Notes under the pieces: model-generated
The model's database searches: none
Told to the model about the DNA's origin: nothing
What the model saw: only the letters and a program-made list of their open reading frames with translations
Assembly (NCBI RefSeq): GCF_002260525.1
Contig: NZ_MRYI01000001.1
Coordinates: 62,001-126,000 of the forward strand
Length of the DNA stretch: 64,000 nucleotides
Direction: 5' to 3'
Source: Hahella sp. CCB-MM4
Lineage (GTDB): Bacteria > Pseudomonadota > Gammaproteobacteria > Pseudomonadales > Oleiphilaceae
In this document: piece after piece, positions 187 to 9,249 of the stretch
Numbering within the stretch: position 1 is the first letter of the stretch
Layout of the letters: each line of letters opens with the position of its first letter
Made by a program: the position numbers and the translations under genes

Positions 187-628
187 GAGAATCCCTATTT
201 AAACTAAACCAATAGCGATAAACCTCACCGATGATTCTTTCCAGGCTGGCAAGATCATCAGGTTTGCAGATGTATGAGTTTGCTCCCAGCTCGTAACTGT
301 TCATGATGTCTTCACCTGACTCGGAGGTAGAAAACACAATGATTGGCAATGATGCCAGTTTGCTATTGTTTTTAATGTCCCGAAGGCAACTTCGACCATC
401 TTTCTTCGGCATATTGAGATCAAGAAATACAATGGTTGAATGGCTGAATAACTCAACTTCCTGATCATTCTCTGACAGCAGGTGAAGTGCTTCCATGAGT
501 TCTTCGCCATCACGGAAACTCTTTACCGTAAAAGGCGTATTTGACCGTTTGACCGCCGTTCGAATCAGCAATAGGTCTTCAGGGTCATCATCCACAACCA
601 GCAGTTGCGGCAGGTAATCAGAATCCAA
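158..628 (-). CDS. Single-domain response regulator (Rcp1-like), partner of the upstream kinase
   Basis: A 156-residue stand-alone receiver domain. Acidic pocket D13-D15, likely phosphoacceptor D70 in FLDLNMP, conserved hydroxyl residue at S100/T101 and K122 in CKPDD are all present. There is no DNA-binding or enzymatic output domain, as in Rcp1-type regulators that pair with phytochrome-like kinases and relay phosphate. I chose the TTG at 628-626 because it sits six bases after a strong GGAGG lying inside the last codons of the kinase gene. It overlaps the kinase stop by 11 bases. A longer open frame upstream of this TTG is just antisense-like reading within the kinase gene and lacks receiver features. 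Likely coupled translation with the kinase. Confidence 0.85.
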   Translation of the reverse strand: MDSDYLPQLLVVDDDPEDLLLIRTAVKRSNTPFTVKSFRDGEELMEALHLLSENDQEVELFSHSTIVFLDLNMPKKDGRSCLRDIKNNSKLASLPIIVFSTSESGEDIMNSYELGANSYICKPDDLASLERIIGEVYRYWFSLNRDSHGHTSISQE

Positions 629-2270
629 TGCCCACCTCCTTCTGATATATCGGGAGTTCAAAATAGATAGAAGCCCCTTTCCCCGGCGCTCCCTCAGCCC
701 AAATCGCTCCCTGGTGCCGCTCAACAATCTTGCGGCAGATTGCCAACCCCATACCGGTACCGGAGTATGTATCCCGCCCATGGAGACGCTTGAACACCTC
801 AAAAATCTGCTCAGAGTAACGAGGGTCGAAACCGATGCCGTTGTCTTTGATACAGATTTGGTAAATATCATCCTGAATGACCGTGCCGTTGATACTCACA
901 ACAGGCACATTTCCATCGACCTTGTATTTCAGGCTGTTGGCGATAACGTTCTGCATCAATTGCCTGACCTGACTCGTATCGCACTCAATCGTGGCCAGAA
1001 ACCCGGTTTGGATTTCAGCGCCAGATTCATCAATGGCCAACTGCAGGTCTGATAAGACATCCTCCAGGATCTTATTCAAATCCGTTGGCTGAAAGCAGCT
1101 TCCCTTGGAAGTTACCCGGCTGTATGACAGCAAGCTGTCCAGCAACTCCCTCATCCTCTCCGCAGCGCTGACCACATAGCCTGAAAATTCCTGCCCCTCT
1201 GAGGTAAATTCACCGTAATCCTGACTCTGCAGCAACTTGGAAAAGGAGATGATTTTCCTTAACGGTTCCCGCAAATCATGGGAAGCAATAAAAGCAAACT
1301 CCTGTAGTTCCCGATTTGATCTTTCCAGTGCGGAATTCCGACTTTCTATACGCCGTTCATATTCTTTGCGCTCACTGACATCCACCACAGAAGCAACGAT
1401 TTCCTGCCGATCAATACTCCCCACAGGGTTCAAGCCAATTTCCACAGGCACCCGAGTGCCGTCCTGTCGCAGGCCGTAGAGATCCTTTCTCTCTCCCATC
1501 GCCCGGCGTTCCGGGGCATCACAGTAGAGACCACGGTCTTCAACATGTTGTTTGCGTAATTCGGAAGGCACCAGTAACTCGATACTTTTTCCCTCCAGCT
1601 CCTCCGACGCGTAGCGGAAGATGGAAAGAGCCTGTTCGTTGGCCTGAAGCACTTTGCCCTGCCGGTTGATGACGATCATGCCATTCGGAGCACACTCGAA
1701 GATGCTGCGAAAGCGTTGCTGTGCCCGGGTGGCAAGCTCAATCTGGTTTTCCAGTGCCTGCTTGGCAGATTCCAATTCCTGGGTCCGCTCTGCCACCTTA
1801 TGTTCTAACGATAAATAAAGTCTGCGGAGTTCCTGCTCTACTTCTTCCCGTCGGGACATTTCATCTCCCAGAGCCCTGTTGCGCTCTTCCAGTATCGCCA
1901 GGCTCGGCATACTGAGCACCTTGGGAAGCAGTGGCCATACCAGTACCGCTGTTACCAAAGAGACTAACGCGGTAAAACCTTTGACGTAGCCTTCCAGATA
2001 ATAATTGCTGTGCCAGGTATTCCAGATATTGAGAAGGTGAGTGGTTCCGCAGGCAAAAATGAAGCAGGCAAACAGGATAAAAATCCAATTGAATTCAAAG
2101 TCCCGTTTTTTAACCCAGATTAGATACAACGCCAGAGGAATGGAGTAATACGATACGGCAATCAGCGCGTCAGAAGCCGTATGCAGAAAGACAAGATCTG
2201 TCTGCCAAAGATAGCAATAACCATGAGGCGTCAACGTTTGTGAGGAAAATTGGGCCAGCAGTTCGTCCAT
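618..2270 (-). CDS. Histidine kinase with an N-terminal ethylene-receptor-like (ETR1-type) domain
   Basis: 550 residues. Residues about 25-120 form three membrane helices that match the plant ethylene-binding domain. Every key ETR1 position I could check is present at a constant offset of nine: D34, Y41, I44, P45, I71, C74 and H78 correspond to ETR1 D25, Y32, I35, P36, I62, C65 and H69, the last two being the copper ligands. A coiled coil (about 125-185) leads to a PAS domain (about 186-300), a HisKA dimerisation helix with phospho-accepting H331 (IASHDLREPL), and an ATPase domain with N445, DNGIG (476-480) and GTGMGL (504-509). Two response regulators follow in overlapping frames. The ligand is inferred from the domain; binding is not shown. 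Inner-membrane location. Confidence 0.92.
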   Translation of the reverse strand: MDELLAQFSSQTLTPHGYCYLWQTDLVFLHTASDALIAVSYYSIPLALYLIWVKKRDFEFNWIFILFACFIFACGTTHLLNIWNTWHSNYYLEGYVKGFTALVSLVTAVLVWPLLPKVLSMPSLAILEERNRALGDEMSRREEVEQELRRLYLSLEHKVAERTQELESAKQALENQIELATRAQQRFRSIFECAPNGMIVINRQGKVLQANEQALSIFRYASEELEGKSIELLVPSELRKQHVEDRGLYCDAPERRAMGERKDLYGLRQDGTRVPVEIGLNPVGSIDRQEIVASVVDVSERKEYERRIESRNSALERSNRELQEFAFIASHDLREPLRKIISFSKLLQSQDYGEFTSEGQEFSGYVVSAAERMRELLDSLLSYSRVTSKGSCFQPTDLNKILEDVLSDLQLAIDESGAEIQTGFLATIECDTSQVRQLMQNVIANSLKYKVDGNVPVVSINGTVIQDDIYQICIKDNGIGFDPRYSEQIFEVFKRLHGRDTYSGTGMGLAICRKIVERHQGAIWAEGAPGKGASIYFELPIYQKEVGIGF

Positions 2271-2635: not shown

Positions 2636-3361
2636 TTATTTGACACCATAATCCGCAAGGATCTTGTTGTAGGTTCCATCAGCCTTTATGGCCGCCAGTC
2701 CCCGGTTATAAGCATCAATGATTTTCTGCCCTCTGGCATTCGCCCTTCCGGCCGCGACATGAAGATTGTTCACTGACAAAGCACTGGTCGTGAAATCCAC
2801 GGCTCCGAGATCCAAACCGGCTCCCTTGATCACAGACTTGGCGACGATTTCATCTTCCAGAGTCAGATCAATACGGCCACTCAACAATTTCTTGATATTT
2901 GCTTCTATGCTGCCCGCTTCCGGCCGGGAAAAATTGCCTGCCTTGGAGAATTCATCCCCATAGCCATAACCACTGACAATACCCACTTTTTTCCCACTGA
3001 GACTATCCAGCCCGTTAAACTCGAAGGCGTCTCCTTTTTTCTTGATGAACTTGATACTGTTCTGCGCGTAGTAATCGCTATATATCAGGTAGCCTTCGCG
3101 CTCTTCGGTATACCAGGCCCCCGGCAGCAGATCTACATTGCCATTCTTGACCTCATTTAATGCCCGATTCCAGGGCATGATTTTGAAATCCACCGTGTAG
3201 CCTTCCTTTGCCATGGCCGCCTTCAATAAGGCAATCGATATACCCGGATCCGAACCTTCCTGAATAAAAGGAGGCCAGGGATCCTGAGCCGCCGTAACAG
3301 TTTCAGCTTGGACAGAAAATGCAAACAGCAGGCTAACTATCAAAGTGGAGATTATCTTCAT
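2636..3361 (-). CDS. Periplasmic solute-binding protein, family 3 (amino-acid type)
   Basis: 241 residues with a clear signal peptide, probable cleavage after SVQA (residue 19). The mature protein has the bilobed SBP family 3 pattern: an early WPPF ligand loop, a DLLPGAW segment in the first lobe, and a GKKVGIVSGYGYG strand-loop at the start of the second lobe. Start ATG at 3361 follows GAGGT at six-base spacing. The gene lies 60 bases behind a chemoreceptor gene on the same strand, with no permease nearby. It may therefore serve sensing (delivering a ligand to the chemoreceptor) rather than, or besides, transport. The ligand is not identifiable from sequence. A hairpin at 2601-2627 follows. 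Confidence 0.85.
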   Translation of the reverse strand: MKIISTLIVSLLFAFSVQAETVTAAQDPWPPFIQEGSDPGISIALLKAAMAKEGYTVDFKIMPWNRALNEVKNGNVDLLPGAWYTEEREGYLIYSDYYAQNSIKFIKKKGDAFEFNGLDSLSGKKVGIVSGYGYGDEFSKAGNFSRPEAGSIEANIKKLLSGRIDLTLEDEIVAKSVIKGAGLDLGAVDFTTSALSVNNLHVAAGRANARGQKIIDAYNRGLAAIKADGTYNKILADYGVK

Positions 3362-3421
3362 TAAGGTACCTCACTAAGCCGTGACTTTCACTTTCGCTTG
3401 GGCGACCTGAAGCTACCACTC

Positions 3422-4963
3422 TCAGGTCCTGAACTTCGACAACCTTCCTATCACTTCTCCAGCGAGCTGACTGACATCTTCTGCCCGCTCAGCTGATGCC
3501 GTGGCATTTTGGGACAGGGAGGTCGCAACCCCGGATATTTCTACGATGTTCTGATTGATTTCATTGATCACATTACTCTGCTCATCAGAAGCCGTAGAAA
3601 TGTGGATATTTTTCTCTGCCATGGTCTGGATAACCGCGTTGATTTCCTCAATGGCTTCACCAGCCTTATTCACCCGTTCAACGCCGGCCTGAGTTCTTTC
3701 AGCCAGTAGCGCAACCCCTTTCTCAACGGCATCGCTGACACTCTGCAGAGTCTCAATACTTGCCTGAATTTCATCCGTGGACTGGCTGGTTTTGACGGCA
3801 AGGTTACGTACCTCATCCGCTACCACGGCAAATCCGCGCCCGGCTTCACCCGCCCTGGCAGCTTCTATTGCCGCATTAAGTGCCAACAGGTTCGTCTGCT
3901 CGGAAATACTCTTGATCACTTCCAGAACCTGGCTGATGTTCTTACCTTCTGAAATCAACTGGGATGCACGGGTTGTAACGGTTCCAATCTCGGTGGCCAG
4001 TGAATCGATATCGCGGACGACTTCTCCCACAATGGCCTTGCCTTGAGAGCTTTTTTCCATGGCGCTACCCGCATCCTCGGAAGCTTGCGCAGCACTGCGG
4101 GCCACTTCAGAGATCGACTCCGTCATTTCAGAGGTAGCGGTGGCCATCATCTCAATCTGGGATTGTTGCCCGGCCAGGTGCTGCGAGGTTTCCGCCGCCA
4201 TTTCACGGTTCCGGCTGGACTGGTTCTGCAACTCAGCCGCCGCCGCGCTAATACTGGAGACAATTTCCTTCAGAGAGTTAACAAAGGTATTGAAGCCGTT
4301 GGTCAAGCGATCCAACTCTTTGCCGGGAGGCATTTCCAACTGTTTGGTAAGATCCCCTTCCCCAGTGGCAATTTCCTGGATGGCGTCGGAAATCACTTCG
4401 ATCGGCTTTAGAACTGTGCGACTCAGTACAACCAGCATCAACAGGGTAATGGCGATATCCAGGACCACAATCATCACAACCTGTTGGGTCAAAAGACCGT
4501 TCAGGCGAGGAGCTATAATATTCATGTCGACATAGACAGTTACTTTCCCGACAGCGTTTTCCTCACCATATTCCACGTAGGTCAGGTTGGCTTCCACCGT
4601 ATCCGTGGAACTTTCAGGAGGCGCTTTGATTTCAACAAAGACAGGGTCGCCGTTGTCGTCAACACCATCCTTACCGAACCACGACAAGGTCTTTCCGTCT
4701 GCACCTGTGACCTGTATCGCCGCCATGACGTCTGCGGTAAGTTCTGATTTGATATTGGCGTTCAGCGGATCAATGCTGTAATTCCAGATCGGCCCCGGCA
4801 GGCTGAGCTGCATACGCCCGACTGCCGCGTTAACCGCATTGTTTAAATCTTTTACCAGATCATCCTTGAGACTGTTGTAGTTGTAGTAGCCGAACAGCAC
4901 CAGTATCAATGTGACGACCACAACAATTTGACTAATAAATTGAAACTTGATGCTCCTGAGCAT
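3422..4963 (-). CDS. Methyl-accepting chemotaxis protein
   Basis: 513 residues in the classic transmembrane layout: membrane helix about 10-28, a small periplasmic sensor of about 130 residues, a second helix about 161-181, a HAMP linker about 182-235, then a long signalling coiled coil. The hairpin tip that contacts CheA/CheW is clear ([20 protein letters not shown] followed by [10 protein letters not shown]). There is no C-terminal CheR-tethering pentapeptide. I set the start at the ATG at 4963-4961, six bases after GAGG; an in-frame GTG five codons earlier has no such site. The periplasmic-binding-protein gene follows by 60 bases, suggesting a sensing pair. The sensor domain did not suggest a ligand. 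Confidence 0.93.
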
Positions 4964-5255
4964 GACGTTCCTCACCACTACTAAAGGTACCCGGATAATC
5001 AGGTATTTAGACGATTGTTAATTTGGGTGATCTGAATAGGAATTCACCGGTAACTTTAAGAATAGACAAAAAATTATCATTAGATAAAAAATGCACAGAT
5101 TTTTGTCGCTTTCTTGTAAAGTTCTCGCCGCTTAGGGACACATTCCCACGGGTCGGCAATACAAGGGAAGTTATCTATACTCAATTACTGAACAGAAAAT
5201 GCACAGCGCCAACATTCATTGAACAGGACTCATAACAACCATAAGGGGTCGAATC

Positions 5256-7738: not shown

Positions 7739-9187
7739 TCAGGAGCGACGTTTCCGGTATTTGGGGTTGGTGGATGCCGCCATACTGGTGAGAGACTTGT
7801 ACTCCTCAAAAGAGGCGACAATCGCATTGATCAAATCTTCAGGTTCATCAATCAACTCGCGGTCCACATTGATACCGATCTGGACGCCACCGTTGTAACT
7901 CAGAAGACTCAGCCCCAGACCAATGTCCCCCGCCTGAGGCACCCAGAACATCAGTTCCTTCACCTGACTTCCAGCCAGATAACGCGCCCGTCTGGCCGCC
8001 GGAACATTAGAAAGCACCATGGAGGTCTTATTGCTGAACAATTCCAGCAACGACTCCTGCACCCCTTGCGGCACCAGGCCAATCGCTGCCAATAAAGTGT
8101 GCGAGAGGGTTGGCTGCATAGATTCCTTCAAGGCCATCATGTCATGTTTGACCTTATACAACCGCTCTACCGGATTGCCGATTTGAGCCGCCAGCGGCAC
8201 AAAGACGGTACCGAATTGATTTCCCAGTTCATGCAGTTGCACTCGCCCGGCTCGGGTTTCCAAGGGCCTTAGGTTGACCGGGAGCGTGGCATGTACCCGG
8301 AGCTCATCCACATCATCTTCCCGCTCGACCAATAACTGACGCAGTCCACCACTGACACAGGCCAGCAGCACATCATTAATAGTGCAGCCAAAACTCTGGG
8401 CCACTTGTTTAAAGTCCGTCAGGGGAATAGCTTCGGACCAGCTACAGGATTTCATGACACCAAGACTACGCCGTAAAGATCGCGCATTGTCAGAAGGCAG
8501 GGCTGCGAGCTTGGCCAATTCTGCCGCACCATTCAGACCACTGCGAATGGTATCCATCGCATATTCTGAATTCTGCAGCATTTGCCGCCCTTCTTCCGTC
8601 AGCCGATAGCTGAGTCGGGTACACTTCTCTACCGCTCGCGCCAGACTTTCTATGCCGAAACTAAGAGCCTGTCTGGCCTGCTGAGTGCCTTTAACAGACT
8701 CCTGCCCCGGGAAAGGATCTATATTGGGAGTCTGATCAGATATGCTGCCGAATACGGCCGCCAGGGACAGCCCATCTGCATAACTGTGGTGCACACGCAT
8801 CACCGCCACATGCTGTCCCTGGTAATTCTCCACCAGAACGAACTGCCACATGGGCTTGGTGGGATCCAGAGGAGTGCTCATCTGCTCTCCAATAAACTCC
8901 TGCAGGGTTTTCTTGTCTGCCGGCTCCGGCAATGCCACACGGCGAACATGGTAATCCAGGGAAAAGTGTTGTGCAGGCTCCCAGAGATAGACACCTGAGT
9001 GACTCCTGGGCACCTTGAGAAAACGAGAAAATGTCAGAAAGCGGGTACGTACGAGTTCCTTGAACTTGCTGAATTTTATTGGCTCAACCACGGCCATTGC
9101 GGTAATGACCATATTATTGGTGGGGCGATCCAGCCGCAGCCAGGCCGCATCGACACCGTTGACAGGTTCAAAGGATGTATCACTCAT
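7739..9187 (-). CDS. Wax ester synthase / diacylglycerol acyltransferase (WS/DGAT)
   Basis: 482 residues from the ATG at 9187. The family's active-site motif HHxxxDG is present as HHSYADG (H133, H134, D138, G139), along with the conserved NDVLLACVSGGLRQ and SNVPAARR segments of the C-terminal half. The enzyme joins acyl-CoA to a fatty alcohol or diacylglycerol, producing wax esters or triacylglycerol at the inner membrane face. An in-frame GTG nine codons upstream is possible, but family members normally begin close to the GVDAAWL segment. An alpha/beta hydrolase gene is divergently oriented across a 386-base gap containing a strong inverted repeat at 9250-9284. Wax synthesis versus TAG synthesis cannot be separated from sequence. 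Confidence 0.92.
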   Translation of the reverse strand: MSDTSFEPVNGVDAAWLRLDRPTNNMVITAMAVVEPIKFSKFKELVRTRFLTFSRFLKVPRSHSGVYLWEPAQHFSLDYHVRRVALPEPADKKTLQEFIGEQMSTPLDPTKPMWQFVLVENYQGQHVAVMRVHHSYADGLSLAAVFGSISDQTPNIDPFPGQESVKGTQQARQALSFGIESLARAVEKCTRLSYRLTEEGRQMLQNSEYAMDTIRSGLNGAAELAKLAALPSDNARSLRRSLGVMKSCSWSEAIPLTDFKQVAQSFGCTINDVLLACVSGGLRQLLVEREDDVDELRVHATLPVNLRPLETRAGRVQLHELGNQFGTVFVPLAAQIGNPVERLYKVKHDMMALKESMQPTLSHTLLAAIGLVPQGVQESLLELFSNKTSMVLSNVPAARRARYLAGSQVKELMFWVPQAGDIGLGLSLLSYNGGVQIGINVDRELIDEPEDLINAIVASFEEYKSLTSMAASTNPKYRKRRS

Positions 9188-9249
9188 AGAAAATAACTTG
9201 GTTGCAGTACCCACTGAATTATTGCATCCCTGTGATGATAGCGTGAATT

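Follow-up and report, generated by a model that had tools for sequence, protein, structure and literature searches.

An ethylene-receptor-type histidine kinase of Hahella sp. CCB-MM4 is encoded in a gene run with a predicted c-di-GMP enzyme

The window, the whole 64,000-nucleotide stretch of DNA that was analyzed (C1:62001-126000 of the 6.66-Mb source genome), cuts through a tightly packed run of four genes that extends beyond it. The gene order is kinase, Rcp1-type receiver, REC-GGDEF-EAL, receiver-like protein (Table 1). The likely start of gene 2 is a TTG codon behind AGGAGGT, with which the gene overlaps the kinase stop by 11 nt. Gene 3 starts at position 186, shares 29 nt with the end of gene 2 and lies mostly left of the window. 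This spacing suggests that the four genes are co-transcribed.

Table 1. Features of the locus; positions are those of the window unless prefixed with L002.
Feature	Description	Position	Strand	Basis or remark
Gene 1	Ethylene-receptor-type histidine kinase, 550 aa	618..2270	-	Pfam; kinase motifs located
Ethylene-binding domain (EBD)	Gene 1 residues 1-125, three predicted long helices	1896..2270	-	Alignments; model
Gene 2	Single-domain Rcp1-type receiver, 156 aa	158..628	-	Pfam Response_reg (on 158-631); PDB sequence matches; start region
Gene 3	REC-GGDEF-EAL, 582 aa	1..186 (first part); whole gene L002:8438-10186	-	
Gene 4	Receiver-like, 148 aa	L002:7985-8431	-	Wholly left of window, 6 nt beyond gene 3
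Solute-binding protein gene	SBP_bac_3	2636-3361	-	Same strand, upstream of kinase
Chemoreceptor gene	HAMP chemoreceptor	3422-4978	-	Same strand, upstream of kinase

The product of gene 1 matches the Pfam model ETR1_N at residues 26-121 (E 7.5e-36; 122.7 bits against a cut-off of 27), the one ETR1_N match in the source genome. An earlier note on this DNA had read the remainder of the protein as PAS, HisKA and ATPase domains, and Pfam agrees, with PAS at 186-291, HisKA at 322-387 and HATPase_c at 431-541. The kinase motifs are all present: H331 in HisKA, N445 in HATPase_c, DNGIGF and GTGMGL. The same note held that seven positions of plant ETR1, both copper ligands included, are conserved at a constant +9 offset. 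The alignment bears this out: D34, Y41, I44, P45, I71, C74 and H78 occupy the same columns as ETR1 D25, Y32, I35, P36, I62, C65 and H69, and 37 of 115 aligned positions are identical. A structure model of the domain (mean pLDDT 86.6; 52 sequences, that is, 51 relatives and gene 1) has long helices at 24-54, 62-87 and 90-111. The earlier note had named in advance a Cys and His outside the second helix as grounds for giving up its reading; in the predicted model I71, C74 and H78 all fall in helix 2, while D34, Y41, I44 and P45 lie in helix 1. A fold search with this model returned no PDB match at E <= 0.001.

Could the seven residues match by chance? The E value for ETR1_N, together with its absence from all 14 control genomes (0/14), rules this out. 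All seven residues occur in 126 of the 141 EBD frames that we gathered (duplicates kept; the best 80 of at least 585 named loci included), and hence the pattern is normal for the EBD family. We conclude that the family model, the residues and the predicted helices support gene 1 as an ethylene-receptor-type histidine kinase, with ethylene binding as a prediction. Its kinase motifs and overlapping partner receiver gene further identify it, as judged from sequence, as a receptor kinase of the AzoEtr1/SynEtr1 type.

Ethylene binding requires seven residues of the EBD (excerpts of PMC6682694 and PMC11819568). As a receptor, gene 1 is of an already known kind: AzoEtr1 of Azospirillum brasilense, 49% identical over the EBD, binds ethylene (excerpt of PMC11819568). 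The earlier description of such domains as little studied was fair in general, but AzoEtr1 has binding, mutant and metabolome data (same excerpt). Perhaps the EBD binds copper and responds to a different input, such as copper or redox state, another small olefin, or light, or perhaps sensing falls to the PAS domain while the EBD chiefly anchors the kinase? SynEtr1 is described as a receptor for ethylene and light (excerpt of PMC11819568), gene 1 does carry a PAS domain, and relatives whose Cys ligand is Trp (L031) or Ala (L103) still keep the operon. The full set of residues in gene 1 and in most of its family, and the binding of ethylene by AzoEtr1, argue the other way, and we regard such a different input as quite improbable.

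The earlier note had called the downstream regulators unknown. This no longer stands, as the kinase is followed by the overlapping gene 2 and then by gene 3. The best PDB sequence matches of gene 2 are RcpA, a CheY-like protein and Rcp1. Gene 3 scores 152.2 bits for GGDEF and 238.2 bits for EAL in Pfam, and its catalytic motifs RxxD, GGDEF, EALVRW and DDFGTG are present; its best NCBIfam match is phosphodiesterase DibA, with a score under the cut-off of that model. These domains and motifs identify gene 3 as a predicted c-di-GMP enzyme. The source genome (G000) has 73 GGDEF matches, a large c-di-GMP network, and gene 3 is thus one such enzyme of many.

Gene 4 has no Pfam or NCBIfam match. The copy of H. 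ganghwensis has a predicted receiver-like fold (pLDDT 80.3; 8 sequences) with Rcp1 as best PDB match (E 2.4e-7). By eye, in two separate alignments, the phospho-Asp and the conserved Lys were not found in any of 12 gene 4 copies, and because these residues are missing we label the protein receiver-like and not a working receiver. Gene 2 resembles the Rcp1-type regulators of bacterial phytochromes by sequence, and gene 4 may do so by this predicted fold. They differ in that the partner here is an ethylene-receptor-type kinase and in that gene 4 is without phospho-Asp and Lys.

We compared 12 four-gene operons, chosen for having the operon. They come from the source genome, H. ganghwensis (G006), another genome of the same family (G281), four Marinobacter records, one Ectothiorhodospiraceae bacterium, and G083, G144, G216 and G296, which are one genus of another family; the EBDs of two of these last are identical to Saccharospirillum records. 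All 12 keep the gene 2 Asp motif LDLNMP, the gene 3 receiver motif [VL]DYFL and the RxxD before GGDEF. The GGDEF motif is found in 11 (SGDEF in L121), as is EALxRW (EGLLRW in L111). The H. ganghwensis proteins are 83% (kinase) and 84% (gene 3) identical to those of the source genome; in the other ten operons, identity ranges from 46 to 62% for gene 3 and from 24 to 38% for gene 4. Other arrangements occur as well. In further genomes of the genus (G001, G002 and, for one copy each, G004 and G005) the receiver comes first, then REC-GGDEF-EAL, then the EBD-kinase, and G015, G023 and G054 have EBD-kinase, receiver and a REC-GGDEF gene without EAL. The EBD gene of G010 lies on a contig too short to show its neighbors. 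Second EBD-kinases of another type are encoded in G004 (L023:8979-10247(-)) and G005 (L025:8903-10171(-)) with no GGDEF gene adjoining, and they group with G245 and G285 in the EBD tree.

Of the 58 genomes in the relatives search, 10 had an ETR1_N match above the cut-off, and of the 390 genomes of the order, 46 did; both counts include the source genome. The named EBD loci are the best 80 of at least 585 and not a random sample. After nine identical rows were merged and a second, weak EBD frame of L095 was dropped, 131 distinct frames were left, of which 13 near contig ends were excluded from linkage counts. Among the 118 with full context (which include those best 80 of at least 585 loci), 20 have receiver and GGDEF neighbors, 5 have a GGDEF neighbor (with a receiver on the far side of the GGDEF gene in 4), 9 are fused to GGDEF, 19 have a receiver only and 65 have neither. 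With 34 of these 118 frames tied to GGDEF, GGDEF is one output of EBD proteins among several. One clade, Zhongshania and its kin, makes up 19 of the 65. In the EBD tree, a 19-row gammaproteobacterial set (SH-aLRT 90) contains 18 rows that are GGDEF-linked or fused; the remaining row, L087, is cut off by the end of its contig. Linkage to GGDEF changes at least 11 times on this tree, a rough guide given its few columns and its 57 open inner branches of 128.

The 84 of 118 frames without a GGDEF link (best 80 of at least 585 loci included), and AzoEtr1 with only a receiver, are points against a c-di-GMP relay. Perhaps the kinase senses ethylene and acts mainly through the Rcp1-type receiver on some other target, such as the motility or adhesion machinery, with gene 3 as a side branch? 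AzoEtr1 and the 19 receiver-only genes in this same sample would fit such a scheme, as would the chemoreceptor gene upstream of the kinase. Against it stand the overlap of gene 3 with gene 2 and the presence of gene 3 in each of the 12 operons that we compared, and between the chemoreceptor gene and the kinase lie the solute-binding gene and a gap of 365 nt. We think it unlikely that the main target lies outside c-di-GMP. We also considered the solute-binding and chemoreceptor genes (2636-4978) as part of the system and found no support for this.

How often would any kinase have such neighbors? We applied the same neighbor rule to EBD genes and to control kinases that lack an EBD, with phmmer single-sequence queries that can miss distant receivers and GGDEF domains. 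The 52 controls were hand-chosen among the matches listed in 8 genomes. From G000 we took 20 of the 23 non-EBD rows that were listed, passing over one broken frame and two lower rows. A further 20 rows with high scores came from G216, G006, G144, G083, G281 and G296, after two rows sharing a neighborhood had been set aside. To these first 40 we added 12 rows of G015, a genome rich in close kinase cores. A GGDEF neighbor alone showed no clear excess, either over all non-fusion EBD genes (25/109 versus 11/52 controls, p 0.84) or over the G-labelled genomes only (19/49 versus 11/52, p 0.08); without G015 the controls gave 9/40. We rejected a GGDEF neighbor by itself as proof of a c-di-GMP tie. 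A receiver and a GGDEF gene together were commoner beside EBD genes (24/109 versus 3/52, p 0.012), and also within the G-labelled genomes (19/49 versus 3/52, p 6.6e-5), in tests on related genomes that ignore kinship.

These counts bear on the idea that the c-di-GMP enzyme arrived as part of the kinase module, i.e., that a cassette of kinase, receiver and REC-GGDEF-EAL existed already and that varied sensors, the EBD among them, were put in front of it. The CHASE domain is known from cytokinin receptors. In G144, which also has an EBD operon, a CHASE-domain kinase is followed by a receiver and then a REC-GGDEF-EAL gene (L210:4802-8817(+)). In L188 and L209 a kinase is followed by REC-GGDEF-EAL with no separate receiver, and when the first 40 controls are ranked by closeness of their kinase core, within the matches listed, three of the top four have a GGDEF enzyme adjoining, one of them with a CHASE sensor. 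The lack of an overall GGDEF excess over controls fits this origin too. The excess of receiver plus GGDEF beside EBD genes, and the existence of EBD-GGDEF fusions without any kinase, speak against it. We put such an origin at a little under an even chance, and in some lineages we do read the EBD as placed ahead of a pre-existing cassette. Even then, the signal would still end in c-di-GMP.

Bacteria commonly share sensor domains between kinases and GGDEF proteins, so the presence of the EBD on both is not unusual in itself. Nine frames (from the sample that includes the best 80 of at least 585 loci) carry EBD and GGDEF in one chain, with no kinase, and all 6 that were submitted to a Pfam search were confirmed. 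All seven residues are present in 8 of the 9, L107 being the exception. An EAL domain is present too in four of them, which come from Methylovorus mays, two Deltaproteobacteria MAGs and an Aphanothece MAG; the EALxRW pattern was found in one of these four (L161). These chains are the best evidence, at the level of sequence, that an EBD can feed into c-di-GMP without a kinase. Residue loss was seen in three GGDEF-tied proteins: the Cys ligand is Trp in L031:8314-10371(-) and Ala in L103:6742-9495(+), and Cys and His are both missing from the alignment in L107:5155-7278(-). These may be natural variants that sense something else.

Among known systems, AzoEtr1/AzoRR-etr1 is similar in its EBD, PAS and histidine kinase followed by an overlapping single-domain receiver gene (excerpt of PMC11819568). 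Only a receiver is seen adjoining AzoEtr1, whereas the Hahella run adds the REC-GGDEF-EAL and receiver-like genes. SynEtr1 (slr1212) of Synechocystis is likewise a bacterial EBD kinase with phosphorelay signaling, but its target, slr1213, turns on a small RNA and is not a c-di-GMP enzyme (excerpt of PMC11819568). GeiEtr2 of Geitlerinema is an EBD kinase with a diguanylate-cyclase-domain gene in its neighborhood; it differs as a cyanobacterial hybrid kinase, and the excerpt of PMC6682694 describes no relay operon. We found no description of the four-gene operon or of the EBD-GGDEF fusions in the open-access literature, the scope of our search. This is weak evidence that the receptor joined to a c-di-GMP relay and the receiver-like gene 4 are the new part.

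In plant ethylene receptors the membrane domain works as a dimer. By our preferred reading, which we consider somewhat probable, gene 1 is a receptor kinase like AzoEtr1 and SynEtr1, and its operon relays the signal to c-di-GMP. The three-helix membrane domain would bind ethylene as a dimer, with Cu(I) coordinated by C74 and H78. Ethylene would turn the kinase down, as analogy with AzoEtr1 and SynEtr1 suggests, and phosphate from H331 would pass to the receiver of gene 2, that of gene 3, or both. The phosphorylation state would then set the making versus breaking of c-di-GMP by gene 3, and gene 4, unable to accept phosphate, would probably act as a competitor or as a scaffold. The simplest chain would run from ethylene through less phosphorylated receivers to changed c-di-GMP. 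Inhibition by ethylene is predicted for AzoEtr1, and for SynEtr1 there is indirect evidence of it (excerpt of PMC11819568). Ethylene reduces both c-di-GMP and biofilm in A. brasilense, where that excerpt states the path from receptor to responses, the c-di-GMP fall included, to be unknown. In Synechocystis ethylene raises biofilm (same source); hence the direction of its effect cannot be assumed.

A single gene run here encodes receptor, receiver and predicted c-di-GMP enzyme, and elsewhere one protein combines the receptor domain with the enzyme. The ethylene-c-di-GMP link is consequently open to test on a small set of purified proteins and a single deletion strain, and the gene arrangement suggests a route from ethylene gas to control of bacterial lifestyle. 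More tentatively, the EBD may have been taken up repeatedly as an input to c-di-GMP: gammaproteobacteria would use the four-gene relay, and several proteobacterial lineages and a cyanobacterium would use GGDEF or GGDEF-EAL enzymes that ethylene gates directly, within one chain. If so, ethylene would serve bacteria generally as a signal from the environment to attach or disperse, and gene 4 would tune the relay as a phosphorylation-dead receiver.

Two minor observations may be added. A conjugative Novosphingobium plasmid (L016:1013-6462) encodes an EBD protein and a receiver near Cas9 and Cas1 genes, an example that EBD kinases can travel on plasmids. Three frames, window 7739-9214(-), L002:9-878(+) and L002:1488-3392(+), resemble wax ester synthases and a polyhydroxyalkanoate synthase; ethylene increases PHB in A. 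brasilense, according to the excerpt of PMC11819568.
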